Origin: a virus | Virus record (IMG/VR): IMGVR_UViG_3300025617_000043 | Coordinates: 1 to 43,807 of that record | Length of the DNA stretch: 43,807 bases | Strand: one strand, 5' to 3' | In this document: positions 3,631 to 25,622 of the stretch, piece by piece | How positions within the stretch are numbered: the first letter of the stretch is position 1 | Layout: the number at the start of each line of letters is the position of its first letter | Notes under the pieces: generated by a model | The model's input: the letters and a program-made list of their open reading frames with translations, nothing else | The model's database searches: none | Told to the model about the DNA's origin: nothing | Program-made: the position numbers and the translations under genes

Positions 3631-3774
3631 ATGATAATTATTGAGACACAAGAGAACGATGTCATCCGTGAGTACGACCTTCCGAATGAGCAGCGCGATA
3701 GTTGGATCGAATTCTTCGACTGGCTGGTGGCGCAAGGGGAGATTCTGATGTGGGCCGAAATGCCGAAAATCTGA
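3631..3774 (+). CDS. Hypothetical protein, 47 aa, FDW motif
   Basis: Reads MIIIETQENDVIREYD and continues to a helical WIEFFDWLVAQGEI segment. The same FDW(L/M)xxQGxI pattern occurs in the 37-residue product at 7617-7730, so the two look like paralogous micro-proteins, which supports both as real. It has no Shine-Dalgarno; a TACATT box 7 nt upstream suggests leaderless expression. Function unknown. First gene of the rightward block. Confidence 0.5.
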   Translation: MIIIETQENDVIREYDLPNEQRDSWIEFFDWLVAQGEILMWAEMPKI

Positions 3775-3847
3775 AATTAAAAAAAATTAAACGTGCGGGT
3801 GTGCCGTACTAGAAAAATCGGATTTAGCAAATGTGAGAATTGTTTGG

Positions 3848-3884
3848 TAACGATTAGGTAACGAATCGGCGTGTCGCATTGACA
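3848..3884 (+). repeat. Composite repeat, module 1
   Basis: TAACGATTAGGTAACG (3848-3863), 15 bases, then TTGACA (3879-3884) preceded by GGCGTGTCGCA. It is the outlying copy of the repeat clustered at 4515-4858, in the 220-bp gap before the 28-residue gene. No TANNNT box lies 16-19 bp after the TTGACA, so it is probably a protein-binding site and not a promoter by itself. Confidence 0.7.
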
Positions 3885-3919
3885 GCCAGAAGAGCGTTAC
3901 AGATTGGTGCCGGCTGCGC

Positions 3920-3948
3920 TTGTGGTGTTGCCCTATTTAGACTAGGCT
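3920..3948 (+). promoter_or_regulatory. Putative early promoter TTGTGG-N17-TAGGCT
   Basis: A -35-like TTGTGG (3920-3925) and TAGGCT (3943-3948) are 17 bp apart, with the first gene of a small operon starting at 3994. Two other sites (4621-4649 and 5595-5623) share the TTGNNN-N17-TARGCT form, which is the main support. The alternative -10 TAGACT (3938) lacks a -35 at normal spacing. Confidence 0.45.
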
Positions 3949-3993
3949 TTTGGCATAGCCACTAAAGGGGTGGCACCAACAGATAGGGAAACA

Positions 3994-4080
3994 ATGAACG
4001 ACGAAATGATGATTCGCTGGATTGAGTCCACGCCGGTAGACGCTTGGATTGACGCAATGCTAGAGGGAGTAAGCGAATGA
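3994..4080 (+). CDS. Hypothetical micro-protein, 28 aa
   Basis: MNDEMMIRWIESTP and on, acidic with two Trp. An AGGGAAAC ribosome site precedes the ATG, and the stop overlaps the next start (ATGA). The tight overlap is the main evidence that it is translated. Function unknown. Confidence 0.5.
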   Translation: MNDEMMIRWIESTPVDAWIDAMLEGVSE

Positions 4081-4214
4081 GAGTGATTACCACGAACACG
4101 GCCGGCGAAAGTATCACCTACGCCTACGACCCGGAGCACTACGAGAGTGTGATGGTGTTTTACCAAGAGCTCAAAGAGCGGGGCGACTTGGTGAGCTACA
4201 GGGTGGCAGACTGA
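4077..4214 (+). CDS. Hypothetical protein, 45 aa
   Basis: Begins MRVITTNTAGESITYAYDPE. The start overlaps the preceding stop as ATGA and the stop overlaps the following ATG as TGATG, so it sits inside a coupled four-gene string (3994-4443). Predicted a short beta-hairpin plus a helix. Function unknown. Confidence 0.6.
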   Translation: MRVITTNTAGESITYAYDPEHYESVMVFYQELKERGDLVSYRVAD

Positions 4215-4339
4215 TGGCGGACAATTGCCTAATCTGTGGCGTGTGGGGTACCCTTCGGGGTACCCCTTGCCCAGACTGCGAGAACGCTAAGGGTGGCTGG
4301 GAAGATATAAGGCTAGACGACTACGGGAGGAAATTGTGA
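4214..4339 (+). CDS. CxxC zinc-ribbon micro-protein, 41 aa
   Basis: Two knuckles, CLIC (residues 5-8) and CPDC (19-22), are separated by a short turn, the layout of a minimal zinc ribbon. Start and stop both overlap neighbouring genes by a few bases. The mRNA for the turn between the knuckles is itself a perfect hairpin with a cUUCGg tetraloop (4245-4266). Function unknown. Confidence 0.6.
   Translation: MADNCLICGVWGTLRGTPCPDCENAKGGWEDIRLDDYGRKL
4245..4266 (+). other. Intragenic 9-bp hairpin with UUCG tetraloop
   Basis: GGGGTACCC pairs perfectly with GGGTACCCC around a TTCG loop (4254-4257), giving the very stable cUUCGg tetraloop. It lies inside the 41-residue zinc-ribbon gene. There is no U-tract after it, so it is not a standard terminator. 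It may protect mRNA, pause ribosomes or be a processing site. Confidence 0.75.
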
Positions 4340-4443
4340 ACAGGACGCGGCCAACACTTTGGGACTTGATACCAGATTGGGCTTATTGGATAATCTGCGG
4401 GGCGATCCTGATCCTGGCGCTAATAGCGCAGATCGGACAATAA
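4336..4443 (+). CDS. Single-pass membrane micro-protein, 35 aa
   Basis: The GTG start overlaps the preceding stop (GTGA) and has an upstream GGGAGGAAATT ribosome site. A short N-terminus (MNRTRPTLWDLIPD) is followed by a hydrophobic span of about 18 residues (WAYWIICGAILILALIAQ). Probably an inner-membrane peptide made early in infection. Such peptides often have anti-host or superinfection roles, but nothing here shows that. Confidence 0.6.
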   Translation: MNRTRPTLWDLIPDWAYWIICGAILILALIAQIGQ

Positions 4444-4581
4444 CCCCGGCAGCCTAGCCCCTCGATCTAAAAGCCGTCTACAGGACGGAGAACCAGACGA
4501 CCCCAAAAACAAGATAACGATTTGGTAACGACACGGCGTGGCGACTTGACACGATTACGGCAAGCGCCAGAGGGGGGATAG

Positions 4582-4597
4582 TCGAACATCTGTTCGA
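4582..4597. promoter_or_regulatory. LexA/SOS box TCGAAC-N4-GTTCGA
   Basis: A perfect palindrome with the TCGAAC(N4)GTTCGA form known for LexA operators of mycobacteria and other actinobacteria. It lies 4 bp upstream of composite module 3 and 24 bp upstream of the TTGACA of the promoter at 4621, so bound host LexA would sit beside that promoter. It suggests that part of the early region responds to host DNA damage. Confidence 0.8.
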
Positions 4598-4620
4598 TTA
4601 TAACGATTCGGTAACAGCCC

Positions 4621-4649
4621 TTGACATTGTGCCCGTTCTGTACTAAGCT
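4621..4649 (+). promoter_or_regulatory. Putative promoter TTGACA-N17-TAAGCT beside SOS box
   Basis: A consensus -35 (4621-4626) and TAAGCT (4644-4649) with ideal spacing. A TAACG box ends 4 bp upstream and the SOS box lies just beyond. It is the only composite repeat with a usable -10. The first gene downstream is at 5079, so the transcript would have a long leader or be a non-coding RNA. Confidence 0.55.
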
Positions 4650-4855
4650 GGGTTTGGTGCCCGAAAACAAGATAACGATCCGGTAACATTACGGCTGCTG
4701 CCCGGCGTGTCGCCTTGACAATAACGATCCGGTAACGCCCGGCGTGTCGGCTTGACATTCGGCAAGCGCCGCGAAAGCGAAATTATAACGATTTGATAAC
4801 AGCCCGCGTGTCAGCTTGACAATAGCAATTTGGCTGCGCTCGGCGTGTTGGGTTG

Positions 4856-4873
4856 ACACTCTCCGGAGAGTGT
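4856..4873. promoter_or_regulatory. Perfect 18-bp palindrome overlapping last TTGACA
   Basis: ACACTCTCCGGAGAGTGT is fully symmetric. Its first three bases are the ACA of the seventh TTGACA motif. Such a palindrome fits a dimeric repressor operator. A (CG)6 tract follows at 4878-4889. As RNA it could form a 7-bp hairpin, but it has no U-tract. Confidence 0.6.
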
Positions 4874-4935: not shown

Positions 4936-4953
4936 TCTCAGATCGGCTGGATT

Positions 4954-4983
4954 CAGCTAATTCATAGGTTAGCTGTGTATAAT
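4954..4983 (+). promoter_or_regulatory. Operator-promoter 1: CAGCTAA-N8-TTAGCTG with TATAAT
   Basis: A perfect 7-bp inverted repeat (4954-4960/4969-4975) fills the place of the -35 and spacer. A consensus TATAAT (4978-4983) follows. The -35 position reads AGCTAA, so the promoter probably depends on, or is blocked by, a factor that binds the inverted repeat. A conserved ATCAACA follows at the expected transcription start (4991). Confidence 0.7.
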
Positions 4984-5022
4984 GGGGGACATCAACAAGA
5001 GAAAAAATAGGGTGTTAGCACT

Positions 5023-5052
5023 CAGCTAAATCATAGGTTAGGGTGCTATACT
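5023..5052 (+). promoter_or_regulatory. Operator-promoter 2: CAGCTAA-N8-TTAG with TATACT
   Basis: A second copy 69 bp downstream of the first, with identical geometry: CAGCTAA to -10 is 24 bp in both, and ATCAACA follows at 5059. Its right half-site is degenerate (TTAGGGT). It directly precedes the 50-residue gene at 5079. A further TTAGC half-site lies at 5015. Confidence 0.7.
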
Positions 5053-5078: not shown

Positions 5079-5231
5079 GTGAACAGGGTACACGATTCAA
5101 TAGCTAAGCCAACCACCAAAACTCGCAACGGGTGGAACAGTAAGCGCCCAAAAACCACACGCGGCCAAAAGCTAAAGGGTAGCTACTATGCTGCCGCCAC
5201 GCCCGTACAAGTGAGCTGGATCGAACGATAG
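5079..5231 (+). CDS. Basic hypothetical protein, 50 aa
   Basis: The GTG start follows AAGGGGG at good spacing. The protein is Lys/Arg/Thr-rich with almost no acidic residues in its first 45 positions, so it may bind nucleic acid. It is the first gene after the twin operator-promoters and so probably among the earliest expressed. No family recognised. Confidence 0.6.
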   Translation: MNRVHDSIAKPTTKTRNGWNSKRPKTTRGQKLKGSYYAAATPVQVSWIER

Positions 5232-5240
5232 GGGAGAACT

Positions 5241-5456
5241 ATGGCACGACTACGCCGCACGGTGGTCGCCACGCGAAAGCTGGCGATACGCTACAACGAT
5301 AATAATACACGGGCGAAGTGTAGGCAATTTATGGAAGAGATGCTCACGCCTGAGATGGTCGAACGCGGGTTCAGAGTATCCGCGAGCCGAAAAGTGTACG
5401 ACGAAACAGACTGCGAAATTTATTACTACGCCTACGACATTACGGCTCTTATATAG
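5241..5456 (+). CDS. Hypothetical protein, 71 aa
   Basis: MARLRRTVVATRKLAIRYND at the start, with GGGGAG 6 bp upstream of the ATG. A basic N-terminus, a central helix (RAKCRQFMEEML) and a tyrosine-rich C-terminus. It lies 9 bp after the 50-residue gene and so in the same early operon. No family recognised. Confidence 0.65.
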   Translation: MARLRRTVVATRKLAIRYNDNNTRAKCRQFMEEMLTPEMVERGFRVSASRKVYDETDCEIYYYAYDITALI

Positions 5457-5471
5457 AGATAACCCTATGTT

Positions 5472-5498
5472 CCTATAATAGTATTATAGTATTATAGG
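5472..5498. repeat. AT-rich inverted repeat with three half-sites
   Basis: CCTATAATA and TATTATAGG form perfect 9-bp arms 9 bp apart. The middle TATTATAG is itself a half-site, so three copies alternate in direction. It lies just after the 71-residue gene and could be an operator or melt easily. The rest of the 5457-5677 gap holds a promoter (5595) and a GC-rich stretch with an orphan GGGGGGAG at 5516 but no supported gene. Confidence 0.55.
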
Positions 5499-5594
5499 AT
5501 TCTCTTATAGTAACACGGGGGGAGTATTCTGCGCATCCGCGCTATTCCGCGGGCCGCCGATTCAACCACGGCGAAAATGCCCCTCGATCCGGAT

Positions 5595-5623
5595 TTGACG
5601 ACACTAAAAGACTATGCTAAGCT
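5595..5623 (+). promoter_or_regulatory. Putative early promoter TTGACG-N17-TAAGCT
   Basis: TTGACG (5595-5600) and TAAGCT (5618-5623) have exact 17-bp spacing, matching the site at 4621. It would drive the long string of small genes that begins at 5678. Confidence 0.55.
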
Positions 5624-5677
5624 CAAGGTATTACAGCAAGGAAACACTAGAACACCACCAGACAATTAGGGGGAATG

Positions 5678-5839
5678 ATGGCAAAAGTACGGTGTAACGA
5701 CTGCCGGGACTATTTCGACAGAACGACGCTCACTTGGAATTCTGAGGACGGGTGGCACGCACTTTGCGACGACTGTAAGCTCGTGCCGGCTGCCACGGGA
5801 CCGGGCGAGTGGAAACTAATCAAGATAGGGGGCAAGTGA
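5678..5839 (+). CDS. CxxC zinc-ribbon micro-protein, 53 aa
   Basis: Two CxxC knuckles (CNDC near residue 6, CDDC near 34) enclose a beta-rich WNSEDGWHAL segment, as in small zinc ribbons. Two ATG codons are adjacent; the second (5678) has better spacing to AGGGGG. The stop overlaps the next ATG. Function unknown. Confidence 0.65.
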   Translation: MAKVRCNDCRDYFDRTTLTWNSEDGWHALCDDCKLVPAATGPGEWKLIKIGGK

Positions 5840-5970
5840 TGGAAGAGCTATCACTAGAGCTAACGCACGAGCTACTGGATATTGCGGAAGCGGACAACAC
5901 TAAGGAACTACTGGAGGAACTGCTGGCAATACGCGGGTACGACGAGAGCAACATCAGGGGGGGCAAGTGA
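5839..5970 (+). CDS. Acidic helical micro-protein, 43 aa
   Basis: The start overlaps the preceding stop (TGATG), with GGGGGC upstream. The sequence is Leu/Glu-rich and predicted as two helices (MEELSLELTHELLDIAEAD, then TKELLEELLAIRGYDE). The stop again overlaps the next ATG. Function unknown. Confidence 0.6.
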   Translation: MEELSLELTHELLDIAEADNTKELLEELLAIRGYDESNIRGGK

Positions 5971-6110
5971 TGGCACGAACATTCACGGACGAAATTTGCG
6001 ACCGGTGCGGAACCCTCACCGTAGAGGGGACGGACCCGGCGTGGTACTACGACAGTAGGCAGCAACTTAAGATGAAATTCATTGAGCACAATTGCGAGGA
6101 GGAACTGTGA
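5970..6110 (+). CDS. Cys-containing micro-protein, 46 aa
   Basis: One CDRC knuckle near the N-terminus (residues 10-13) and a His/Cys pair near the C-terminus (HNC) could ligate zinc. Translation is coupled by overlap at both ends. Function unknown. Confidence 0.6.
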   Translation: MARTFTDEICDRCGTLTVEGTDPAWYYDSRQQLKMKFIEHNCEEEL

Positions 6111-6352
6111 TCACGATTTACGAAACAGCATTCTACGGACCAACGGACCACCGCGGCCAGCGCATCAAGGTAACCAATACCCGCACGGGTAAAAGTAGGT
6201 GGCACCATTGGGACTATGCCGTGAACTGGGGAATTGACCAGCACGAGGAAGCGGTTAGACGGTGCGCGTTATTTCGCGGGAAGCTCGTAGAGCTAGGCGG
6301 CCAAACTAAGCGGGGCTGGCTATTCGCGCTGACACACGAAGAGGGGGAGTGA
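6107..6352 (+). CDS. Hypothetical protein, 81 aa
   Basis: GTG start at 6107 chosen because GCGAGGAGGAA lies at ideal spacing and GTGA overlaps the previous stop. An upstream TTG in frame lacks such a site. The product (MITIYETAFYGPTDHRGQ and on) is a basic alpha/beta protein with HHWDYAVNW. Similar small early proteins occur in actinophages, without known function. Confidence 0.7.
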   Translation: MITIYETAFYGPTDHRGQRIKVTNTRTGKSRWHHWDYAVNWGIDQHEEAVRRCALFRGKLVELGGQTKRGWLFALTHEEGE

Positions 6353-6573
6353 TGACACCGGAACAGATGGAAACATTCACGGCAGATATTGACGACAGCC
6401 CGGTGATAGAACGGGACTACTTTGGGAGAGTGGTGGTGACAATTCAGCTAGCCGGGGGAATTGAGCTGATGGTGCGGGCAAGTAAAATCGCGGCAGCATT
6501 AGCGCCATCGTCGTACGAGCGGTCGCTCGGAATGTACCGGCAAGACTGCGAGCGGAAGAATGCGGGGGAGTGA
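6352..6573 (+). CDS. Hypothetical protein, 73 aa
   Basis: Starts MTPEQMETFTADIDDSP at the ATG that overlaps the previous stop, with GAGGGGGAG upstream. A beta-rich middle (YFGRVVVTIQLAGGIELMV) is followed by a C-terminal helix. Coupled to the next gene. No family recognised. Confidence 0.65.
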   Translation: MTPEQMETFTADIDDSPVIERDYFGRVVVTIQLAGGIELMVRASKIAAALAPSSYERSLGMYRQDCERKNAGE

Positions 6574-6671
6574 TGATGACGGAGTGCCCACGACACGAGG
6601 GAGCTTTTGACTGTACGCCTTTTTGCGATGTATGCGAAGGTAATCAAGAATATGAACAGGGGGAACAATGA
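6573..6671 (+). CDS. Cys-rich micro-protein, 32 aa
   Basis: CPRHEG, a single Cys and CDVC within the first 22 residues give a C-x2-H and C-x2-C pattern like a tiny zinc finger. Overlapping stop/start signals at both ends (TGATG, ATGA) and GGGGGAG upstream support translation. Function unknown. Confidence 0.5.
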   Translation: MMTECPRHEGAFDCTPFCDVCEGNQEYEQGEQ

Positions 6672-6925
6672 GCACGAAAACCGACGGTACTTGGGACACG
6701 GCGTTTATGACCGGGCATTATCGCCGGGAGTACTCAGCGCTACTGGACCGCACGATCGTGGACATACGGGCGATGTATCCGGAAGAGATGGAGATACTTG
6801 GCTGGGAGTCTGCGGGCGAGGCAGGCTGCCTGCTGATACTGGACGACGGCTCGGTGTTCGTGCCGGCGTCGGACCCGGAGGGCAACGGACCCGGCGCGCT
6901 GATAGTTAGCGAGATGGGGGAATGA
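6668..6925 (+). CDS. Hypothetical protein, 85 aa
   Basis: ATG preceded by CAGGGGGAACA. Reads MSTKTDGTWDTAFMTGHYRR, with a central LDRTIVDIRAMYPEEMEILGWE and an acidic C-terminus. Predicted alpha/beta. Overlaps the genes on both sides. No family recognised. Confidence 0.7.
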   Translation: MSTKTDGTWDTAFMTGHYRREYSALLDRTIVDIRAMYPEEMEILGWESAGEAGCLLILDDGSVFVPASDPEGNGPGALIVSEMGE

Positions 6926-7044
6926 TGTTGCTGGCGGAATGTTGCGAGGCAGAGAATATCGAGGAGTGTGGCTGCGGTGAGTGCTTATCGTGCCCACCGG
7001 AGTCGCGAGCACAATGGTGCTCTAACTGTAAGGAGGAGCGATGA
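6922..7044 (+). CDS. Cysteine-rich micro-protein, 40 aa
   Basis: Nine cysteines in 40 residues, in patterns CC, CGCGEC, CLSC-like and CSNC, enough for one or two metal sites. ATG at 6922 (ATGA overlap) or 6925. The stop overlaps the next ATG. The highest Cys density in the genome. Function unknown. Confidence 0.6.
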   Translation: MMLLAECCEAENIEECGCGECLSCPPESRAQWCSNCKEER

Positions 7045-7103
7045 ACTGGTACGACTTGGCAGCAGGGGTAAGTGAACTAGACGAGGAGGAATGGGAAGAA
7101 TGA
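7041..7103 (+). CDS. Acidic micro-peptide, 20 aa
   Basis: MNWYDLAAGVSELDEEEWEE, behind a strong AAGGAGGAGCG ribosome site and overlapping the genes on both sides. Its main role may be translational coupling to the next gene. Confidence 0.4.
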   Translation: MNWYDLAAGVSELDEEEWEE

Positions 7104-7279
7104 AAGAGTACACATTCACGATGACACGCACGGACACGGGCAAGGTGACCGTCACGGCGGCCAACGAGCGGGAAGCCATCGAGAAGGCGCACGACTACAC
7201 CGCACGAATTGTGATGGTGAACGAGCGCTCGTGGCAAGACTCACGGATAATCAGGCACAAACTAGAAGGGAAAAAATAA
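7100..7279 (+). CDS. Hypothetical protein, 59 aa
   Basis: MKEYTFTMTRTDTGKVTVTA then NEREAIEKAHDYTA gives a beta-beta-alpha pattern seen in many small phage proteins that begin with a strand pair and a helix of AxEAxxxA type. The start at 7100 overlaps the previous stop; 7091 is an alternative in-frame ATG. Function unknown. Confidence 0.65.
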   Translation: MKEYTFTMTRTDTGKVTVTAANEREAIEKAHDYTARIVMVNERSWQDSRIIRHKLEGKK

Positions 7280-7617
7280 TGGGGGACCGGAATAACATCA
7301 AGATCACATACAGCACCGGGGATAGTATCTATCTCTACGGGCATTGGATTGGCAACGAGATTCACGGAATCGTAAAGCAAGCTATGAAGTCATCGGACAG
7401 GGTAACGGACGAGTCATACTTCGCAAGGGTGCTGTTCTCCCGAATGGTGACAAGCGGTGGCACCAGGGACATTGACACGGAGACGGGCTACGGGATCGCC
7501 CCGTATGTTGTGGACCACGACGCCGGGAATGTAATGGTGCATATCGACTACACCAAAGCTAGCAAGCTGACCGAGTGGCGGCCAGCGGTTAACTACGAGT
7601 ATGCGGATGTGGAGTAA
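7279..7617 (+). CDS. Hypothetical protein, 112 aa (MGDRNNI type)
   Basis: ATG at 7279 chosen because TAATG overlaps the previous stop and GAAGGG lies upstream; the longer GTG form (7231) has no ribosome site. Proteins starting MGDRxNI with a YLYGHWxG segment are common in actinophage early regions. Their role is not known. Confidence 0.75.
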   Translation: MGDRNNIKITYSTGDSIYLYGHWIGNEIHGIVKQAMKSSDRVTDESYFARVLFSRMVTSGGTRDIDTETGYGIAPYVVDHDAGNVMVHIDYTKASKLTEWRPAVNYEYADVE

Positions 7618-7730
7618 TGACAGATAACGACGGCTGGGGCGAAGTGTTCGACTGGATGCTAGAGCAAGGACACATCGTGACACTAGAAGACGGCTCAATG
7701 ATGATGGTGAAACAAGAAGGGGAAATGTAA
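7617..7730 (+). CDS. Hypothetical micro-protein, 37 aa, FDW motif
   Basis: MTDNDGWGEVFDWMLEQGHI carries the FDWxxxQGxI motif also seen in the 47-residue product at 3631. Overlaps the genes on both sides (TAATG). Function unknown. Confidence 0.6.
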   Translation: MTDNDGWGEVFDWMLEQGHIVTLEDGSMMMVKQEGEM

Positions 7731-8104
7731 TGGGAACGACGGGATATTGGGTTAGCTACTACGAGACGAACACAACCGAGAAGGTGAGGGAGTGGCTGCG
7801 CAAGCAATACACCTGGGACGAGTGGCAAGTGCTCGATCTGGCACCAGGCACGAAGCGCCGGAGTAACTGGTGGATGGCTATGAAGCAAGCGGAAACCGGT
7901 AGGGTCAGGGCGTTACAGGTCATCACCAGCAACCGAGCCAAGAGTGAAAGTACCTTTTATACCAAGGAAGTGGGGGAGGATATGGGACCATACTCCACGG
8001 ACATTCCCAAGCGATTGTTCCGGATGCTCACTCCACTTGATGAAGACGAAACCTACGCTCGGGAGTGGCGCGAGAAGGTAAGCAGCGGAGTAGTGAGGGG
8101 GTAG
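7730..8104 (+). CDS. Hypothetical protein, 124 aa (MGTTGYW type)
   Basis: Starts at the ATG overlapping the previous TAA, with AAGGGGAA upstream. MGTTGYWVSYYE and a following KVREWLRKQY helix resemble a set of phage proteins that begin MGxTGxx and have a conserved Trp-rich beta core (WWMAMKQ). Function not established. Confidence 0.75.
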   Translation: MGTTGYWVSYYETNTTEKVREWLRKQYTWDEWQVLDLAPGTKRRSNWWMAMKQAETGRVRALQVITSNRAKSESTFYTKEVGEDMGPYSTDIPKRLFRMLTPLDEDETYAREWREKVSSGVVRG

Positions 8105-8106
8105 CA

Positions 8107-8271
8107 ATGGAATGGAAGGACGGCGACGACAGTGCGCTGTACGACAAGGGCTACAACGACGGCTACAGGCAGGCGATCATAGACGCTCAGGCAAGCAAGA
8201 AGAAGCTAGGCAAACTACGCCGAGAGACATACCAAGCACCATCGAAGGGGAAGGGGAAGCACAGTGCCTAG
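8107..8271 (+). CDS. Hypothetical protein, 54 aa
   Basis: MEWKDGDDSALYDKGYNDGY: the DxGYxDGYxxA pattern is typical of short phage helical proteins. A basic C-terminus (KKKLGKLRR, KGKGKH) suggests nucleic-acid contact. Ribosome site GAGGGGG precedes it. Function unknown. Confidence 0.65.
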   Translation: MEWKDGDDSALYDKGYNDGYRQAIIDAQASKKKLGKLRRETYQAPSKGKGKHSA

Positions 8272-8482
8272 ATACAACATACAACAGACGGTCGAATATC
8301 ACGCGGAAGCTATCGAGGCTTCGAGCCCGGAGGAGGCTCTCTCGATTTACCTGAAAGACCAGGACAGCTACTATGTCGGGGTTGATGACGAGAACATCGA
8401 GGAGCTCGAGTGGTGCGACGAATGCGACAACGAAGCGGGCTGGTGCAAGTGCGAGGATGATGAGGAGGAAGACAATGCCTAA
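8264..8482 (+). CDS. CxxC-containing acidic protein, 72 aa
   Basis: GTG start behind AAGGGGAAG, overlapping the previous gene. A beta-alpha-beta N-terminal half (VEYHAEAIEASSPEEAL) looks like a small single-domain phage family, and the C-terminal half has CDEC and CKC knuckles ending in an acidic tail. Function unknown. Confidence 0.7.
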   Translation: MPRYNIQQTVEYHAEAIEASSPEEALSIYLKDQDSYYVGVDDENIEELEWCDECDNEAGWCKCEDDEEEDNA

Positions 8483-9113
8483 CTGGGTAAGCAACTCGGT
8501 CAGAGTGACCGGCAACAAGGAAGACCTGAAACGCTTTGCGGAGCAGGCTGGCGCAGACTACAGGCGCAAGTTCCACGAACTAACACCGGATGGTTTAGCG
8601 TGGGTTGATGGTGAAGTATCCGATCAGCACCTATCATTCTGGAACTTCGTGCGACCTGACGACTCAATCCTCGATGAGTATTGGGGTTCCGAGAGCCAGG
8701 ACTTGTCGCTGGAGCAGCGGTTACAGTACAAGACGAACCACTGGTACGACTGGAATGTCCGCAACTGGGGGTGTAAGTGGGACGCGAGCCATGTGTACTT
8801 CGAGGACTGGGATGGCGAGTTAGCCTACGACTTCGATACGCCATGGGGGTTCCCCGAGGGTGCTGTCCGCGCCATGGTTGCCCAGTACCCGACACTGAAC
8901 TTCACGATCAGGTTCCTGGAGGAGCAGGGTTGGGGTGGCGAGGCTGTCGGCTTTGATGGTGACTTTGCCATCCTCAAGGAGTGGGACATTCCCTGTACGC
9001 ACGAGGAGCGCATGGAGCATATTGGCTACTGCTGGTGCGAGGAGATGCGCGACGACGAGGTGGAGTACATGTACGACGACTGCCCAAAGAAGAAGGAGCT
9101 AGCGAATGCCTAA
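8475..9113 (+). CDS. DUF1281/Api92-like protein, ferredoxin-like fold
   Basis: 212 residues starting MPNWVSNSVRVTGNKEDL, the classic N-terminus of the DUF1281/YubB (Api92-like) family, with the family's WYDWNVRNWGCKWDA segment mid-protein. The family occurs on phages, plasmids and integrative elements; its biochemical role is not established. The C-terminus adds CWCEE and other Cys residues. ATG at 8475 chosen for the MPNW signature and GAGGAGGAAG upstream. Confidence 0.85.
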   Translation: MPNWVSNSVRVTGNKEDLKRFAEQAGADYRRKFHELTPDGLAWVDGEVSDQHLSFWNFVRPDDSILDEYWGSESQDLSLEQRLQYKTNHWYDWNVRNWGCKWDASHVYFEDWDGELAYDFDTPWGFPEGAVRAMVAQYPTLNFTIRFLEEQGWGGEAVGFDGDFAILKEWDIPCTHEERMEHIGYCWCEEMRDDEVEYMYDDCPKKKELANA

Positions 9114-9204
9114 CGACAATGCAGCCTGGGTTACAGAGCGACTAAGCCGGGTGCTCAATCAAGCGATCTACGAATCACAAAAGTCTCAGGAGGATGACGA
9201 CTAG
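9106..9204 (+). CDS. Hypothetical micro-protein, 32 aa
   Basis: MPNDNAAWVTERLSRVLNQA: one amphipathic helix. The ATG overlaps the previous gene's last codons, with AAGGAG upstream. It is the last gene before a structured 180-bp gap. Function unknown. Confidence 0.5.
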   Translation: MPNDNAAWVTERLSRVLNQAIYESQKSQEDDD

Positions 9205-9214
9205 ACACACAGAC

Positions 9215-9315
9215 TCAGCCAAGCAGGGAAGCAAGGCTGACACGGGCCGCGTACTTACCCCTTTCAGCGCGGCCCACTGGGAGCAGGTGGAACCCCCTAT
9301 CTTTCACCTGCTCCC
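9215..9315 (+). terminator. Three consecutive hairpins, last terminator-like
   Basis: Perfect arms occur at 9215-9220/9235-9240 (TCAGCC/GGCTGA), 9244-9251/9268-9275 (GGGCCGCG/CGCGGCCC) and 9279-9289/9305-9315 (GGGAGCAGGTG/CACCTGCTCCC). The third extends through G-U and A-U pairs and is followed by TCTTCCATTT. The whole gap is almost fully paired, so it may be a processed RNA or a multi-hairpin terminator that closes the micro-gene operon before the methyltransferases. Confidence 0.6.
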
Positions 9316-9350
9316 TCTTCCATTTACAGATGAAACATAGGATGATGAGA

Positions 9351-9356
9351 TAAGAT
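9351..9356 (+). promoter_or_regulatory. Putative -10 box TAAGAT before methyltransferase operon
   Basis: GAGATAAGAT lies between the hairpins and the ribosome site (GAGGAGGG at 9366-9373). It resembles the TGATAAGAT before the 2OG oxygenase gene (25090-25095). No convincing -35 at 16-18 bp. Confidence 0.35.
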
Positions 9357-9384
9357 ACAAGAATAGAGGAGGGATGATTTCACG

Positions 9385-9888
9385 ATGACCAACTGGGGGA
9401 ACGAAGCAACAGTAGCCAAGACAGAAGTATGGCTCACGCCACCAAGCATTATCAGAGCGCTTGGGGATTTCGATCTTGACCCGTGCTCCGAGGAGGAGAT
9501 GCCGTGGCAAGTGGCAAGCAAGAAGTACACGGAGAAGGACGACGGTCTTGTTCAGGAATGGGAGGGTCGGGTCTTCATGAACCCACCGTACGGACCGAAG
9601 CTTGACCCCTTCTTGCACAAGCTGGCTGAGCACGGAAACGGAATCGCTCTCGTGTTCGCTAGGACGGAGACGCGGGCGTTCTTTAGAAATGTGTGGCCGC
9701 GCGCTAATGCGATCATGTTCTTGCGCGGTCGGGTTAGGTTCTATCGACCAGACGGAACGCAGGGACAGTCTTCTGGTTCGCCTAGCTGCCTCGTCGCCTA
9801 CGGCGAGAACAATGTCAAGGCGTTGTATGACTCTGGTCTCGATGGAGTCATCATTACATTGGATGGAATGGAGGAGATGCCCAAGTGA
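9385..9888 (+). CDS. DNA N6-adenine methyltransferase (phage Dam type)
   Basis: 167 residues matching the phage Dam family (PF05869 type): KTEVWLTPPSIIRALGDFDLDP at the start and the catalytic NPPY at 66-69, followed by PFLHKLAEHG. It transfers a methyl group from SAM to N6 of adenine, probably to mask phage DNA from host restriction. No target-recognition extension is visible, so the site cannot be read. It overlaps the cytosine methyltransferase by 4 bp, so both bases are probably modified together. Confidence 0.9.
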   Translation: MTNWGNEATVAKTEVWLTPPSIIRALGDFDLDPCSEEEMPWQVASKKYTEKDDGLVQEWEGRVFMNPPYGPKLDPFLHKLAEHGNGIALVFARTETRAFFRNVWPRANAIMFLRGRVRFYRPDGTQGQSSGSPSCLVAYGENNVKALYDSGLDGVIITLDGMEEMPK

Positions 9889-10493
9889 AGATACTAAACC
9901 TCTACGCCGGCATCGGTGGCAACAGGAAGCTCTGGGGCGACGATCACCAGATAACCTCGGTTGAGTACGACCCCAAGATTGCAGCCGTGTATGCCGACCT
10001 ATGGCCGCAGGATGAGCTGGTCGTGGGAGATGCTCACGAGTACCTGAGACTGAACCACGAGCAGTTCGACTTCATCTGGTCATCACCACCGTGCCAAAGC
10101 CACAGCTCGTTTCGCTACAACATTCAGGTGAGGTTCCACGGGACCGAGCAGGTCTACCCGGACATGAGCTTGTATGAAGAGATTCTCTTTCTGAAGTACC
10201 ACAGCAACGCCACCTGGCTGGTGGAGAATGTCGTGCCGTATTACGGAGCGATGCTCGATCCCATCAAGCGCAATCGCCATCTGTACTGGACTAATTTTGA
10301 CCTGCCAGAGATTCCCAAGACGGGTGAGAACATCAAGACAATGAACAAGGTTAGCCAGCTCGAGGAGCTACACGGGTTTGACCTGTCGAAATATAGTTTG
10401 CCAAACAAGAGGCAAGTGCTTCGAAATGTAGTCGATCCGGAAGCGGGCCGGCTATTTTTGGAGGCAGCAATCAAGGAGAGGGAGCATGGATAA
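9885..10493 (+). CDS. DNA cytosine-C5 methyltransferase
   Basis: GTG start (GTGA overlap). SAM-binding motif LNLYAGIGG (residues 4-12), catalytic SSPPCQSHS with Cys70, ENV at 114-116, and a C-terminal RQVLRNVVDP segment like motif IX/X. At 202 residues it is short, with a reduced target-recognition region, as is usual for small phage cytosine methyltransferases. No partner endonuclease is nearby, so it probably serves protection. Confidence 0.9.
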   Translation: MKILNLYAGIGGNRKLWGDDHQITSVEYDPKIAAVYADLWPQDELVVGDAHEYLRLNHEQFDFIWSSPPCQSHSSFRYNIQVRFHGTEQVYPDMSLYEEILFLKYHSNATWLVENVVPYYGAMLDPIKRNRHLYWTNFDLPEIPKTGENIKTMNKVSQLEELHGFDLSKYSLPNKRQVLRNVVDPEAGRLFLEAAIKEREHG

Positions 10494-12056: not shown

Positions 12057-12314
12057 GTGTTAGCCTTCGTTTTAGTGACAGCGATATTCATCGCCTGGGC
12101 TTGGCGGTTTGTCAGGAATGTCGAAGAGGGTTACGAAGAGCAGACAATCCTTCAGCAGATGCAACAAGCTGAAGCTCGGCAACGCGAGGTTGAATCCGGA
12201 GACTACTGGGAAGAGGAGGAGGTGCATTATGACACTGGAGAAATTGTTACCCACACCAGACCAGCAATCCGCCATCCAAAGAATCGTAACCGAGCCTACG
12301 AGAGCAGCTCTTAA
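12057..12314 (+). CDS. Single-pass membrane protein, 85 aa
   Basis: GTG start after GGAGCTAGGCCGAG. An N-terminal hydrophobic span (MLAFVLVTAIFIAWAWRFV) is followed by an acidic coiled coil (QQMQQAEARQREVE) and a polar tail. Its end overlaps the helicase start by about 85 bp in another frame, long for an overlap, but both start sites are well supported. Confidence 0.6.
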   Translation: MLAFVLVTAIFIAWAWRFVRNVEEGYEEQTILQQMQQAEARQREVESGDYWEEEEVHYDTGEIVTHTRPAIRHPKNRNRAYESSS

Positions 12315-13614
12315 CGCTTCCACCATGGGGGCTGGTAAGACACTCAAGGCGGTTGAGGTAGCCAAGGCTCTTGGCTCCAAGACCATCCTGCTCATAGCCC
12401 CACTCAACACCAGGCTGGGGTGGCAGGTAACCTTCGAGCGACAGGGTGTAGACCTGCCATTCAGGTGGATCAACTCAAGGTCCGCTGGCCAGAAGGCCAA
12501 GGAGGATTGGTTTTGGCAGCAGCCCGGCATCTACTTCGTGGGTGTCGAGTTGTTCGTTCGACTAGGCTGGGAGGGCAAGACTCGATCGAAGATGTGGAGC
12601 CACAAGCCTGACCTCGTGCTGTTCGACGAGGTACACCGCAGTCAGAATCGCAAGAGCAAGACGCACAAGACGCTCAAGCAGGTGAAGGGCAAGTTCAAGC
12701 TTGCCATGTCGGGCACCCCCACGGGCAACAACTTTGATGGCGCTTGGGCTGTGACCAAGTGGCTGTGGCCAACGGTTATCGAGAACTCTTACTGGGCTTG
12801 GGTCGATAAGTGGTGCGCCACTGAGTACGACCACTTCGCACCGGGCGGGAAGAAGGTTGTCGGCGAGAAGACGCCCGGCGCATTCTTCAACTACTTGCCG
12901 TGCTACGTCCGCCTCGAGTCCGAGGTTGACGCCAAGCTCCAAGAGGAGCAGGTCTACATCGAGCTCACACGTGAGCAGCGCAAGGCCTACAACGATCTTG
13001 AAGAGAAGATGATTACCTGGTTAGAGGACAGGCCGCTGGTGGTCGAGTTCCCGATCAGCTTGCGCGCCAGGCTTCGGCAGGCGACACTCGGGTTGTTCTC
13101 CATCGACGACGAGGACAACGTGGTATTCGACAACGACTGCAAGTCGCAGAAAATCGACGTGATGTTCGACATACTCGAGGACGACTTCGAGAACGAGACG
13201 GCTCTCATCCTTACCGACTCCAGAAAGTTTGCCGACGTGGTTGTCAGCAGGCTCAACCGGGACGGCAAGACCGCAATGCCCTGGCATGGAAACATCTCGG
13301 ATGCTAAGCGACAAGAGACCAAGGAAGCATTTGTCAGTGGTTCGTGTCAGTATGTAGTAGCTGTAATATCCGCCATCGCAGAAGGCGTTGACGGGTTGCA
13401 GCACGCAACACGTAATGTGCTGTGGATGAATCGCAGTGACAACAGAATCCTCAACGAGCAGGTGGCCAAGCGTGTTCACCGCAGGGGACAAGAGAGAACG
13501 GTTCGATCGGTGGAGCTCATAGCAATTGACACCTATGACTCCGGCGTATTAAGCTCGCAGATACAGAAGGCAGTTGACATGAACCGAACACTCAAGGAGC
13601 AACGTGGCGATTAG
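12229..13614 (+). CDS. SNF2-like DEAD/DEAH helicase
   Basis: 461 residues with all expected superfamily 2 motifs: Walker A STMGAGKT (31-38), DEVH (133-136), SGTPTGN (161-167), ILTDS, an SxIAEGVDGLQHA segment and motif VI QVAKRVHRRGQ. These are the SNF2-type motifs found in phage helicases of similar size. It probably unwinds or remodels DNA or displaces proteins during replication or recombination. ATG 12229 chosen for AAGAGGAGGAGG upstream; the in-frame extension to 12109 lacks such a site. Confidence 0.9.
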   Translation: MTLEKLLPTPDQQSAIQRIVTEPTRAALNASTMGAGKTLKAVEVAKALGSKTILLIAPLNTRLGWQVTFERQGVDLPFRWINSRSAGQKAKEDWFWQQPGIYFVGVELFVRLGWEGKTRSKMWSHKPDLVLFDEVHRSQNRKSKTHKTLKQVKGKFKLAMSGTPTGNNFDGAWAVTKWLWPTVIENSYWAWVDKWCATEYDHFAPGGKKVVGEKTPGAFFNYLPCYVRLESEVDAKLQEEQVYIELTREQRKAYNDLEEKMITWLEDRPLVVEFPISLRARLRQATLGLFSIDDEDNVVFDNDCKSQKIDVMFDILEDDFENETALILTDSRKFADVVVSRLNRDGKTAMPWHGNISDAKRQETKEAFVSGSCQYVVAVISAIAEGVDGLQHATRNVLWMNRSDNRILNEQVAKRVHRRGQERTVRSVELIAIDTYDSGVLSSQIQKAVDMNRTLKEQRGD

Positions 13615-14272
13615 TATTGGTGACAACTGCAAGAGGGGTCACGAGATATCAGGTGACAACATTCAGTACTACACCAACCACGGTGTGCGACGAGTGCGGT
13701 GCGCAACGTGCAACCAGCCACCAAAGTCCAACCCGAAGAAGAAGCCGGGCGACATGTGCAAGAACGGTCACGTGATTATCGGTGACAACATGCGTGAGCA
13801 GAAGATGCCGGGCGGTGTGGCATACGTTTGCGTTACTTGCAAGCGGGAAAATGTGCGAAGAAATTATCGCAATAATTCCGGTCTCACCGAGGATGAACTC
13901 AACCGCAGAGATCGCAATCAGTCCAAGTCTGCGCTTCAATCAGCACGCAGGGCGGCCGAGCGAGCTGACGATCTTATCGAGAAGGGCAAGGAAGATGCTG
14001 CGCTCAACTACCTGAAGCTCACTAAACGAGCCGAGCGGATGAGTGATGCCCTACAGAAGGGCATGGCGAAAGACAGGGCCAGGTGTGCAGATAATCCTGG
14101 ACCCTATATTGACTACGAAGAAGGCAACGAGCCAACCAAAAACCAGGCGTACTTGATGTGTGTCGGTTGTCCGGTGTTGGTGCAGTGTGCTAGATTCGCC
14201 AGCGCATACAAACCAGCTGTCGGTGTATGGGGTGGGGAAGTTTATGAAGACGGCAAGTTACGATACAAATAG
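13604..14272 (+). CDS. WhiB-family regulator fused to two N-terminal zinc-ribbon repeats
   Basis: 222 residues in three parts. Two repeats of C-x3-H...C-x2-C type with the shared (R/N)GHxIxGDN core lie at residues 9-36 and 52-79. A charged helical linker covers about 95-155. A WhiB domain follows, with Cys161, 186, 189 and 195 (C-x24-C-x2-C-x5-C) and the GVWGG turn at 207-211. WhiB proteins are actinobacterial [4Fe-4S] regulators that act on sigma factor; phage copies can repress host genes or block superinfection. GTG start behind AAGGAGC, overlapping the helicase stop. Confidence 0.85.
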   Translation: MAISIGDNCKRGHEISGDNIQYYTNHGVRRVRCATCNQPPKSNPKKKPGDMCKNGHVIIGDNMREQKMPGGVAYVCVTCKRENVRRNYRNNSGLTEDELNRRDRNQSKSALQSARRAAERADDLIEKGKEDAALNYLKLTKRAERMSDALQKGMAKDRARCADNPGPYIDYEEGNEPTKNQAYLMCVGCPVLVQCARFASAYKPAVGVWGGEVYEDGKLRYK

Positions 14273-14282
14273 GAGGAACACA

Positions 14283-14942
14283 ATGGAATCAGTACCAAAA
14301 ATCTACGGAGCTATCGCTGCTATCCAGGCTGGAGTTGGCAACATTCCGAAGAACGGCATCGGCCCGGCATCTCAGGGCTCGTACAAGTACGTCAAGAATG
14401 ACGACATCCTGGAGGCCATCTCCAAGCTGATGATTGAGCACGGTGTTATCACTAAGCCAGAGATCATTAACTACGAGCTGGTCAGCCGGGAGATTGGCAA
14501 GGACCGGGTCGTCCCCTTGACAATCGTTCACTTGAAAATCACCTACATCTCCGTCGAAGACGGCTCGGAGTTCTCCGTGATTGTCGGCTCAGAAGGCGCA
14601 GACAACAGCGACAAGGGTGGCCGCAAGGCCGTAACCCAGGCGCAGAAGATTGCTAACCTGCTGACCTTCAACATCGCAACAGGCGAGCCTGACCCCGATG
14701 GCATGGATGTTGCGCCGATAGCCAAGGGTTCAACACCTGCCCAGGCTAAGATTGCGCAGGCATCTACCAGTGGAACCTACAACCAGATCAAGGCGTTCCT
14801 TGGTACGGCTGGTCTTAGTGGCTCGGTTGCTAACACTATCGGTGGACGCATCTCGGGTGGCAAGAGCCCCGACGTGTGGACCAAGGATGAGGACGTGCTC
14901 AAGCAGGTACTCGCGGCCCTCAAGGCTGGCGAGGTCGAGTAG
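14283..14942 (+). CDS. erf: ERF-family single-strand annealing protein
   Basis: 219 residues. The N-terminal half has the ERF pattern: AIAAIQAGVGNIPKNG, then GSYKYVKNDDILEAISKLMIEHGV, then KAVTQAQKIANLLTFNI. ERF proteins anneal complementary single strands for recombination or genome circularisation. The C-terminal part (AKIAQASTSGTYNQIKAFL onward) is a small helical domain. It sits with the nuclease (15105) and SSB (15950), a complete recombination set. ATG chosen for TAGGAGGAACACA. Confidence 0.85.
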   Translation: MESVPKIYGAIAAIQAGVGNIPKNGIGPASQGSYKYVKNDDILEAISKLMIEHGVITKPEIINYELVSREIGKDRVVPLTIVHLKITYISVEDGSEFSVIVGSEGADNSDKGGRKAVTQAQKIANLLTFNIATGEPDPDGMDVAPIAKGSTPAQAKIAQASTSGTYNQIKAFLGTAGLSGSVANTIGGRISGGKSPDVWTKDEDVLKQVLAALKAGEVE

Positions 14943-15115
14943 TGCAGGTCTCCGCGAAGTCTCCCATAGTTGGAGACTCAACATGGATAGCGATGTGGGA
15001 CTGTGGTCGCTGCCCCGAGTCCGCCAAGTATGACTACTTGGACTCGGAGGTAGAGGCTCTGAACATGGCACAGCTCTACTCATTCCTACACGAGCTGCAA
15101 AACCATGGAGCCTAA
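14942..15115 (+). CDS. Hypothetical protein with CxxC, 57 aa
   Basis: GTG start overlapping the previous TAG. MQVSAKSPIVGDSTWIAMWD, then CGRC, a YDYLDSEVEALNMAQLY helix and a short tail. Overlaps the nuclease start by 11 bp. Only two Cys residues, so zinc binding would need a partner. Function unknown. Confidence 0.6.
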   Translation: MQVSAKSPIVGDSTWIAMWDCGRCPESAKYDYLDSEVEALNMAQLYSFLHELQNHGA

Positions 15116-15953
15116 GCTAAGAGTCCGGTCCTCCGGGCATGGTGGCAGTGGGTATAAGCACCCGCACACCGGGGTAACAGTCCCCGGTGTAACCACCGTG
15201 CTCAAGAGACTGGACAAGCCAGCGATCGCGCAGTGGGCGGTGGACAACACGGCGGCCTATGCGGTTGCCAACATTGACCACCTGCTGACACGCACGCAAG
15301 AGCAGGGCTACGGATTCTTGCGGTGGTACTGGAAGCGTGACCCGCTCAAGGGTGACACGGAAGATATCCGCAACTATTCGAACGGCGTGCTCAATGATGC
15401 AGCAGAGCTCGGGACATTGCTTCACGACTGGGTTGCGGCCGAGCACGGTGCTTGCCCCTACCCCGACACGAGCTCGGCACCATATCACTTCTGGGAGATG
15501 GTGGAGCAGTGGGATCAGTACAGTGCGCAGCACGACATCGAGCCCGTCCACACGGAGGTTACTCTCTGGAACAGCGAGCTTGGCTACGCCGGTACAGCTG
15601 ATGGCATCTGGAAGATTGATGGCAAGCTAACGATGCTTGACCTCAAGACATCTCGCAACACGTGGGATGAGCACTGGATGCAGATATCCGCACTAGCCGA
15701 GGCCACGACACTCCTGGAAGAAGTGGATGGCAACTGGGTCGAGACGGATATGCTACGGTGTGAGCAGCGGGCGCTGCTTCACATCAGGCCCAGCGATACG
15801 GACAAGGAGGGCAATGCAATGGCCCCCTTTGCCGAGTTGAAAGTAATGCCGGAGGATGAATATGATGACATGTTCAAGGCATTCAAAGGATTGCTTAGCG
15901 TGACTCATGCGCTGAGCGATATCAAAACCCTACGCAATAGGAGGAGTAAATGA
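15105..15953 (+). CDS. PD-(D/E)XK nuclease (RecB/Cas4-like exonuclease)
   Basis: 282 residues with a RecB-type nuclease core: LGTLLHDWVAAE (His107), YAGTADGI (Asp166), LDLKTSRN (Asp179-x-Lys181) and a following WMQISALAEA with Gln193. The Fe-S cysteines of true Cas4 are absent. It is probably the 5'-3' exonuclease partner of ERF. Coupled to SSB by a 4-bp overlap. Confidence 0.88.
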   Translation: MEPKLRVRSSGHGGSGYKHPHTGVTVPGVTTVLKRLDKPAIAQWAVDNTAAYAVANIDHLLTRTQEQGYGFLRWYWKRDPLKGDTEDIRNYSNGVLNDAAELGTLLHDWVAAEHGACPYPDTSSAPYHFWEMVEQWDQYSAQHDIEPVHTEVTLWNSELGYAGTADGIWKIDGKLTMLDLKTSRNTWDEHWMQISALAEATTLLEEVDGNWVETDMLRCEQRALLHIRPSDTDKEGNAMAPFAELKVMPEDEYDDMFKAFKGLLSVTHALSDIKTLRNRRSK

Positions 15954-16321
15954 GTCGCATCAACGCCGTATTTAGCGGCAACGTGGTGGCTGAGCCCACC
16001 CGAAAGGACATCAACGGGACATCTCTCATGGAGTTCCCCGTCTATGTCAACCACACCAAGAAGAACCGTGACTCGGGAGAGTACGAGAAGACTGGTGACA
16101 CCAGCAAGATTCGCGTTACCGTGTGGCGCGATCTGGCAGACACCTTGGACGTGAAGCAGGGAGACCTGGTTGAGGTTCACGGTAGCTTGATTGAGAAGGA
16201 GTTCGACAAGAAAGATGGAACTCCTGGTCGCTCGCTTCAGACCGATTACATCGAGTCTGTCGTGGTCAAGTACCGCAAGGATGGACAGGCGGCAACCGTC
16301 GATTCAGACGGAGCCTTCTAA
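15950..16321 (+). CDS. ssb: Single-stranded DNA-binding protein
   Basis: 123 residues with an OB-fold SSB pattern: INAVFSGNVVAEPTRKDING, FPVYVNH, KIRVTVWRDLADTL, GDLVEVHGSLIEKEF. It lacks the long acidic tail but ends DSDGAF, similar to the DDDIPF-type tip that recruits host partners. GAGGAG precedes the ATG. It protects single strands for ERF and the primase-helicase. Confidence 0.9.
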   Translation: MSRINAVFSGNVVAEPTRKDINGTSLMEFPVYVNHTKKNRDSGEYEKTGDTSKIRVTVWRDLADTLDVKQGDLVEVHGSLIEKEFDKKDGTPGRSLQTDYIESVVVKYRKDGQAATVDSDGAF

Positions 16322-16333
16322 CCCAATAGGGTT

Positions 16334-16406
16334 TGGCCCATAGCTCAATTGGCAGAGCGACCGGCTGTTAACCGGTAGGTTCCTGGTTCGAGTCCAGGTG
16401 GGCCAG
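16334..16406 (+). tRNA. tRNA-Asn (GTT)
   Basis: A full cloverleaf of 73 nt. The 7-bp acceptor TGGCCCA/TGGGCCA pairs perfectly, the D-stem is GCTC/GAGC, the anticodon stem ACCGG/CCGGT has loop CTGTTAA (anticodon GTT), and the T-arm is CCTGG-TTCGAGT-CCAGG. The discriminator is G as usual for tRNA-Asn. CCA is not encoded. It is the only tRNA found and lies between SSB and the primase-helicase. Confidence 0.95.
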
Positions 16407-16436
16407 CGTAGTACGATAACAACAGAGGAGGTGTAC

Positions 16437-24783: not shown

Positions 24784-25064
24784 TAGATGTCCTCTAGCAG
24801 GGCACGCAGCAAGGCGGCGTTGGACTCGTTCGTGTCGCTGATTGCGTACAGGCGGTCGTTGGGGTTGAGTTCGACAGAGAAACCTGCACCCGGGTCGAGC
24901 TTGAAGCCGTAGTCGGAGGTGGTCACAGTGGAGCCACCGATGTAGACAATGGCGGTTTCGTCAACATTCTGGATCGTTACATCGAGACCAGAGTGGCGTG
25001 CGCCAGGAGTTAGCTCGGTTGCGGTGGTGTTGCTCAGCGTGAGAAGGTCGTGGTAGATAGCCAT
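24783..25064 (-). CDS. Small beta-sandwich structural protein, 93 aa
   Basis: MAIYHDLLTLSNTTATELTP, HSGLDVTIQNVDETAIVYIGG, DYGFKLDPGAGFSVEL. Proteins with this MAIYHDxLTLS...VYIGG pattern are frequent in actinophage and aquatic phage tail regions and look like beta-sandwich surface proteins. TAGAAT lies 6 nt before the ATG (leaderless). Confidence 0.7.
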   Translation of the reverse strand: MAIYHDLLTLSNTTATELTPGARHSGLDVTIQNVDETAIVYIGGSTVTTSDYGFKLDPGAGFSVELNPNDRLYAISDTNESNAALLRALLEDI

Positions 25065-25070
25065 ATATCT

Positions 25071-25095
25071 ATTCTACCGCAAGATGTGATAAGAT
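25071..25095. promoter_or_regulatory. Divergent promoters: TAGAAT (minus) and TAAGAT (plus)
   Basis: Minus: TAGAAT (25076-25071), 6 nt before ATG 25064. Plus: TGATAAGAT (-10 25090-25095), about 32 bp before GTG 25128 with GCAGGAGG between. The two -10 boxes are 13 bp apart. This isolates the oxygenase gene as an independently expressed cargo unit. Confidence 0.45.
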
Positions 25096-25127
25096 TTTTT
25101 GCATCAGAGCACAAAGCAGGAGGAAAA

Positions 25128-25622
25128 GTGACCTACAAAGTAATAGATAACTTTTTGGACCAAGAAAGCTTCCGGGCAATCAAGGCCGCAATGGAAAGCG
25201 CGGACTTCGCCTGGTTCTACAACGACAGCGTGCTGTTCGAAAAATCAGACGAAGAACTTTATGACTATCAGTTCACGCACACCCTCTATAACGACTCGCT
25301 ACCCACTAGCGATTACTTTTTTACGTTTCAACCACTATGGGACAAGATAAAGCCAATCTCTTTGATTAGAGTTAAGGCCAACCTGAATCCAATCACGCCC
25401 ACCCACTACTACGGCGGCTGGCATCGAGACTATAAGTTGCAGTGCAACACAGCTGTTTACTACATGAACACTAATAATGGTTGGACGGAATTCAAGGAAA
25501 CCGGCGAGAAGGTTGAATCAGTGGAAAACAGGCTTCTTGTTTTTGATTCGGAAATGGAGCACAGTGGCGTAACCACAACCGATACAAGCGCCAGGTTTCT
25601 CCTGAACATTAACTACTTGTAA
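25128..25622 (+). CDS. 2OG-Fe(II) oxygenase
   Basis: 164 residues from GTG behind GCAGGAGG; the longer frame to 25050 overlaps the divergent gene and is unlikely. Metal ligands GGWHRD (His99, Asp101) and MEHSG (His145), and Arg156 in ARFLLNINY for 2-oxoglutarate, are all present. The family hydroxylates proteins, nucleic acids or small molecules; the phage substrate is unknown. It stands alone on the plus strand among tail genes. Confidence 0.87.
   Translation: MTYKVIDNFLDQESFRAIKAAMESADFAWFYNDSVLFEKSDEELYDYQFTHTLYNDSLPTSDYFFTFQPLWDKIKPISLIRVKANLNPITPTHYYGGWHRDYKLQCNTAVYYMNTNNGWTEFKETGEKVESVENRLLVFDSEMEHSGVTTTDTSARFLLNINYL

Follow-up and report, generated by a model that had tools for sequence, protein, structure and literature searches.

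A phage-specific WhiB protein with an N-terminal arm of predicted tandem zinc ribbons, encoded in a replication and recombination operon

Among Wbl proteins of solved structure, the one closest in sequence to the protein described here is WhiB7, the core of which binds region 4 of SigA while its C-terminal AT-hook contacts DNA just upstream of the -35 element (PMC3905903, PMC10245118). The triplet E63-P64-W65 is needed for WhiB7 to bind SigA (PMC3905903). WhiB proteins are also among the commonest regulators of actinophages, and their role in phages is almost unknown. A survey that examined 2951 actinophage genomes for WhiB placed the cluster EK genes near replication genes and found function hard to deduce (PMC8612146); the words zinc, N-terminal and HNH are absent from its main text. 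Two other regulator fusions are known. WblP, already described, resembles the present protein in joining a Wbl domain to another nucleic-acid or polymerase module and differs in the partner, an ECF sigma factor (PMC6282962). Ku-Lsr2 of cluster J phages, mentioned in the same survey, is likewise a regulator fusion, with another partner domain and another regulator family (PMC8612146). Our literature search on phage WhiB and zinc ribbons returned one unrelated paper; it covered mostly literature outside subscription, and an earlier mention is possible.

The gene was located in a 43,807-nt stretch of viral DNA, referred to as the window (Table 1). Its open reading frame, its motifs and a Pfam Whib match agree with the architecture given in the earlier note, namely two C-x3-H/C-x2-C ribbons, a linker and a complete WhiB domain with GVWGG. 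The reading frame is a real gene. It overlaps the stop codon of the upstream helicase gene by 11 nt, and most orthologues are also preceded by a purine-rich site like that of the window; the overlapping reading frames in the operon suggest translational coupling. A copy 98% identical to the window protein (L020) was found on a contig of a Microbacteriaceae bin. Relative to L020, the window gene carries approximately 52 synonymous and 5.5 nonsynonymous changes (dS 0.49, dN 0.011), and the whole armed protein is under strong purifying selection (dN/dS ~0.02). The presence of L020 in this bin makes a member of the Microbacteriaceae the most likely host, with the reservation that bins can catch phage contigs by composition. 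No second WhiB gene was found in the window.

Table 1. Features of the armed WhiB gene and its operon, in window coordinates.
Feature	Position	Strand	Basis or remark
SNF2-type helicase, upstream operon neighbour	12229..13614	+	Pfam SNF2-rel_dom, E=3.4e-13
Shine-Dalgarno sequence AAGGAG	13594..13599	+	4 nt 5' of GTG; read from sequence
Zinc-ribbon-armed WhiB gene	13604..14272	+	222 aa, GTG start; orthologues
Predicted zinc ribbon 1 (C9, H13, C33, C36)	13628..13711	+	C9-x3-H13 ... C33-x2-C36; residues 9-36
Predicted zinc ribbon 2 (C52, H56, C76, C79)	13757..13840	+	C52-x3-H56 ... C76-x2-C79; residues 52-79
Helical linker	13859..14068	+	Model helices 96-126, 130-137, 141-156
WhiB core, four cysteines, GVWGGEVY turn, short C-terminus	14072..14269	+	Pfam Whib
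ERF-type single-strand annealing protein, downstream operon neighbour	14283..14942	+	Pfam ERF, E=2.1e-14
Putative PDDEXK-type nuclease of the operon	15105..15953	+	By inspection only; position conserved; without Pfam match
Single-strand DNA-binding protein (SSB), same operon	15950..16321	+	Pfam SSB, E=3.3e-10
tRNA-Asn	16334-16407		In the window; occupies the SSB-to-primase gap where some relatives carry a second WhiB

When residues 1-155 were shuffled 100,000 times, one ribbon motif arose in 0.09% of the shuffles and two motifs in none. All four ligands of each ribbon, eight in total, were kept in every two-ribbon relative, as were all four WhiB cysteines (C161-x24-C186-x2-C189-x5-C195) in the two-ribbon orthologues, whose identity to the window protein ranges from 44% to 98%. 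The C3H ligands of both ribbons are predicted zinc sites; no Pfam zinc model scored above its cut-off in the window protein. Since the fold model was of moderate quality (pLDDT 77, pTM 0.41), only its secondary structure was used, which comprised a two-stranded hairpin for each ribbon, the linker helices and the WhiB turn. The helical linker proposed between ribbons and WhiB was thus upheld as to its helices and had to be redrawn as to its extent: its end (approximately residues 119-155, LNYLKLTKRAER...) is retained in ribbon-less relatives and is therefore part of the WhiB unit, which puts the true junction at about residue 95-118. The linker also matched tape-measure and DUF5667 Pfam models weakly, and these matches were rejected as helical look-alikes.

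The Pfam Whib model matched residues 157-212 of the window protein with 32.4 bits against a cut-off of 23.6 (E=1.4e-7), and detected 10 of the 11 aligned relatives at E<=1. WhiB7 was the top match of solved structure by sequence (E=3e-8), and WhiB7 chains made up the best four matches of a fold search, each of them weak (best E 0.13 in the PDB). Shared with WhiB7 of M. tuberculosis (PDB 7KUG, 7KIF) are the Fe-S cysteines and the GVWGGE turn (GVWGG at residues 207-211) followed by an aromatic residue and a glycine, GGE-[VI]-[FYW]-x2-G. A glutamate follows the turn in most forms (E212 here), as it does in M. smegmatis WhiB7 (E71). In contrast, the C-terminal AT-hook RGRP/basic tail of WhiB7 is absent from the window protein, which ends in GVWGGEVYEDGKLRYK, and from its orthologues, and the N-terminal arm belongs to the phage protein only. 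In an ungapped alignment P204-A205-V206 stands in place of the EPW triplet (some distant relatives have P-A-W), so that the WhiB7 contact is not preserved as such; P204 is invariant in alignment A4. By sequence, then, the window protein is a member of the Wbl family and not a WhiB7 orthologue. Its two halves are opposite in charge: across the ribbon-bearing forms the net charge of the basic arm was +8 to +18 and that of the WhiB core -13 to +1, the core being acidic in nearly all of them.

Relatives were found with the helicase as bait and then by alignment. Two ribbons and a core were present on the viral contigs L003, L004, L005, L006 and L080, and an additional N-terminal Cys/His module, the third, in L013 and L014. 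L015 has two ribbons and L018 one, both with diverged cores. Three relatives were ribbon-less: L081, L082 and L021, the last a contig of the Microbacteriaceae bin that also holds L020. Among viral contigs, the most similar fusion protein (72% identical) was that of G001, the sister of the window phage in the helicase tree. Annotated phage records yielded no close relative, their best matches being core-only or less than 30% identical. Clavibacter phage CN1A gp15 (U5PTC1) and Pseudanabaena phage Pan2 gp45, annotated only as hypothetical proteins, resemble the window protein in their order of ribbon, linker and WhiB-like core and in the position of their genes, which follow a helicase gene in a replication operon. 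They differ in having a single ribbon each and a diverged core, which falls below the Pfam cut-off in CN1A and is undetected by Pfam in Pan2. In the L015/Pan2 group the second and third cysteines are separated by eight residues, not two. The WhiB-like cores with this spacing lie at L002 2788-3504 and L015 5986-6882. Pan2 is recorded as a cyanobacterial phage, yet its operon is like those of actinophages. Stand-alone phage WhiB proteins, such as TM4 WhiB and Microbacterium phage Lifes gp80, share the WhiB core in an actinophage and differ in carrying no zinc-ribbon arm; the Lifes gene likewise lies between helicase and exonuclease/ERF genes.

In close relatives the gene occupies one slot, in the order SNF2-type helicase, WhiB gene, ERF, putative nuclease, SSB and primase-like gene. 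One extra open reading frame separates helicase and WhiB in L081, and several small genes do so in L015, Pan2 and Lifes. The earlier note had raised the possibility that the N-terminal part is a separate gene in all relatives; profile and motif searches of the relatives found the arm either fused or absent, never encoded separately. The domain order it proposed to look for in actinobacteria and phages was recovered in related viral contigs and in the L020 contig of the Microbacteriaceae bin. At E<=1e-9 a further 396 Actinomycetota genomes gave no armed WhiB, and a search of plasmids gave none either. Another 199 Microbacteriaceae contained no full-length match, and the two weak matches among them were ribbon-less WhiB-like reading frames. 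The armed WhiB is a genuine, conserved and phage-specific Wbl variant. The ribbon-less relatives show that the WhiB core can do without the arm, and the WhiB-core tree accommodates both loss and original absence of ribbons in these forms. In more distant pairs the ribbons evolve faster than the core.

All three ribbon-less records also encode a second, canonical WhiB, which carries a basic tail in those read, compared with one of nine ribbon-bearing records (G002). The hypergeometric probability of this complement, calculated by hand, was 9/495 = 0.018 for 12 records, and it is taken as a lead only because the records are related and some are fragments. Second canonical WhiB genes with basic tails lie between SSB and primase at L004 8989-9321, L021 9094-9381 and L081 5495-5791.

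The ribbons are of the kind found with HNH nucleases, as had been supposed. When phage proteins were searched with the arm, the sole matches were mycobacteriophage HNH endonucleases, at an E of ~0.2 for the whole collection that is weak alone. Aligned pairwise, however, the arm matched the tandem ribbons of Graduation gp10 with E=3e-7. This protein consists of NUMOD4-HNH_3 (Pfam) followed by two ribbons, CKRGHELSGDNLQ... and CINGHPKTPENRY..., and has in common with the arm the tandem C-x3-H/C-x2-C arrangement and the signature CKRGHE-[IL]-SGDN-[IL]-Q. Its ribbons are C-terminal, in contrast to the N-terminal ribbons of the window protein. Ribbon 2 and the linker also matched residues 163-268 of the 281-residue HNH endonuclease phrog_826 (E=3.6e-8). 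The HNH families phrog_826 and phrog_1492 matched 9 and 8 of the 11 relatives, respectively, in the window protein over this same segment, and the arm had no match in the PDB. The window protein is not an HNH endonuclease; no NUMOD4 or HNH Pfam match was obtained at E up to 10. In L080 the operon includes, between its ERF and nuclease genes (4390-4866), a gene for a NUMOD4-HNH homing endonuclease that ends in a ribbon-like tail; it is a possible donor of the arm.

We give roughly even credence to a model in which the protein is an Fe-S module that docks on RNA polymerase and leaves DNA contact to a borrowed arm of zinc ribbons. As a phage Wbl regulator, it would be made together with the early replication and recombination operon, and its C-terminal domain would probably hold a [4Fe-4S] cluster. 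The WhiB core would dock on the RNA polymerase of the host, either at sigma region 4 or close to it, like WhiB1, WhiB3 and WhiB7. The canonical C-terminal DNA-binding tail is absent, and the basic N-terminal tandem-ribbon arm would contact DNA instead. A single polypeptide would then engage the polymerase together with a site in the DNA upstream of -35, steering transcription, probably of phage genes, with activation as the presumed outcome. The division into a basic arm and an acidic core that lacks the tail fits such an adaptor. The DNA-targeting arm envisaged in the earlier note is plausible, given a basic arm of nuclease-tail type, a mostly acidic core without a DNA-binding tail, and a unit that is conserved under purifying selection; the two targets suggested for it did not hold up, as described below. 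The adaptor is also favoured by the retention of all ribbon ligands and WhiB cysteines, by the kinship of the arm to HNH endonuclease tails, by WhiB7 being the closest relative of solved structure, and by the second WhiB of the ribbon-less relatives. Counted against it are the loss of EPW, the eight-residue cysteine gap in L015 and Pan2, the setting among replication genes, the want of a common target site among relatives and the existence of ribbon-less cores.

The replication setting admits a different reading, that of a replication or recombination accessory in which the ribbons would bind single-stranded or branched DNA and the core would be a structural or redox module contacting helicase, ERF or SSB and taking no part in transcription. 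The constant slot between SNF2-type helicase and ERF, ahead of nuclease, SSB and primase, and the overlapping reading frames speak for such a factor. In Microbacterium phages of cluster EK, too, WhiB is encoded amid replication genes (PMC8612146). However, regulators too occur in early operons, many other contexts are known for phage WhiB genes (PMC8612146), and the best established partner of a Wbl core is sigma region 4 (PMC10245118, PMC3905903). We regard a purely accessory role as possible and rather unlikely.

Less likely still is a role in host takeover, by which the protein would compete with host WhiB for sigma or promoters, shutting off host genes or excluding other phages, and the ribbons would serve as a protein binder or a general DNA anchor. 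According to the survey's passage on TM4, its WhiB acts on host whiB2 as a dominant-negative regulator and blocks secondary infection (PMC8612146). Short WhiB cores without a DNA-binding tail do occur among the relatives. However, a conserved arm of nuclease-tail type suggests DNA targeting, and TM4 WhiB is a stand-alone protein. Passive accretion, in which a chance fusion added a homing-endonuclease tail that is tolerated without function, is very improbable: the NUMOD4-HNH gene inside the L080 operon, the range of 0 to 3 modules and the faster evolution of ribbons in distant pairs speak for it, but the ligands of both ribbons are all kept across divergent phages, dN/dS relative to L020 is ~0.02, and a ribbon is also present in the distant CN1A/Pan2 group.

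The adaptor model can be extended, speculatively and with considerable doubt, to a class of modular adaptors for RNA polymerase in phages. In such a class a tail-less WhiB Fe-S core would be programmed by 0-3 exchangeable zinc modules of homing-endonuclease-tail type, as a one-polypeptide counterpart of sigma appropriation by T4 AsiA and MotA, and arm-less phages would leave the choice of promoter to a second WhiB that has a tail. The orthologue series, with 0-3 zinc modules in one operon slot, offers a system for asking how a Wbl core finds DNA and acts during infection. Should the choice of target site lie with the arm, the protein would represent natural re-targeting of a sigma-binding Fe-S protein by endonuclease-tail modules.

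Two candidate targets of the arm had been suggested, AGCTAA operators and composite repeats. AGCTAA occurred at 22 sites against 16.6 +/- 3.7 expected, and 13 of 100 shuffles gave equally high counts; the enrichment was not significant and AGCTAA was rejected as the operator of the arm. The composite repeat, TAACGATtTGGTAACG then CGGCGTGTCGgCTTGACA, is present in about six copies in 3844-4860, one of which adjoins a promoter-like TTGACA-N17-TAAGCT. Of the three nearest relatives, G002 and G003 have the TAACGAT..GGTAAC array and G001 lacks it. The linkage of repeats and arm was judged unsupported, the array being absent from G001 despite its having the closest fusion protein among viral contigs. 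The target may have changed in G001, which is conceivable because its early region is of different make. Comparison of the sequences upstream of the small terminase gene revealed no shared activator site.

The 3844-4860 array itself consists of tandem TAACGAT-N2-GGTAAC (TAACG every ~11 bp) and CGGCGTGTCG-N2-TTGACA elements, all in a single orientation. At 4953-5050 two copies of TCAGCTAA[TA]TCATAGGTTAG stand shortly before TATAAT and TATACT. Within the first copy an inverted repeat of AGCTAA and TTAGCT occupies the expected position of the -35 element, which makes a regulated early promoter pair likely; the fetched regions of relatives did not contain the longer promoter-like sequence. Between the early and late genes, a GAAATTAAAAAAAATTAAACGTGCGGGTG block at 3770-3810, also present in G001 (L042 ~10068-10112), is a possible origin or regulatory site. 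Adjacent genes for Dam-type and C5-cytosine-type DNA methyltransferases lie at 9385-10493, the latter encoding 202 aa with a Pfam match to the first 79 positions; the pair is common to G002 and G003, and the fetched part of G001 did not contain it. A possible 2OG-Fe(II) oxygenase gene (25050-25622, Pfam match below cut-off) is read from the + strand, amid late genes that run on the - strand. In L046 (G005), several near-identical promoter-like sites, TTGACAAACCGAAATTGGTGTGTCTATAATG, with a conserved spacer were seen at ~5230-9400, and several of these are preceded by CCCCTWWAGGGG.
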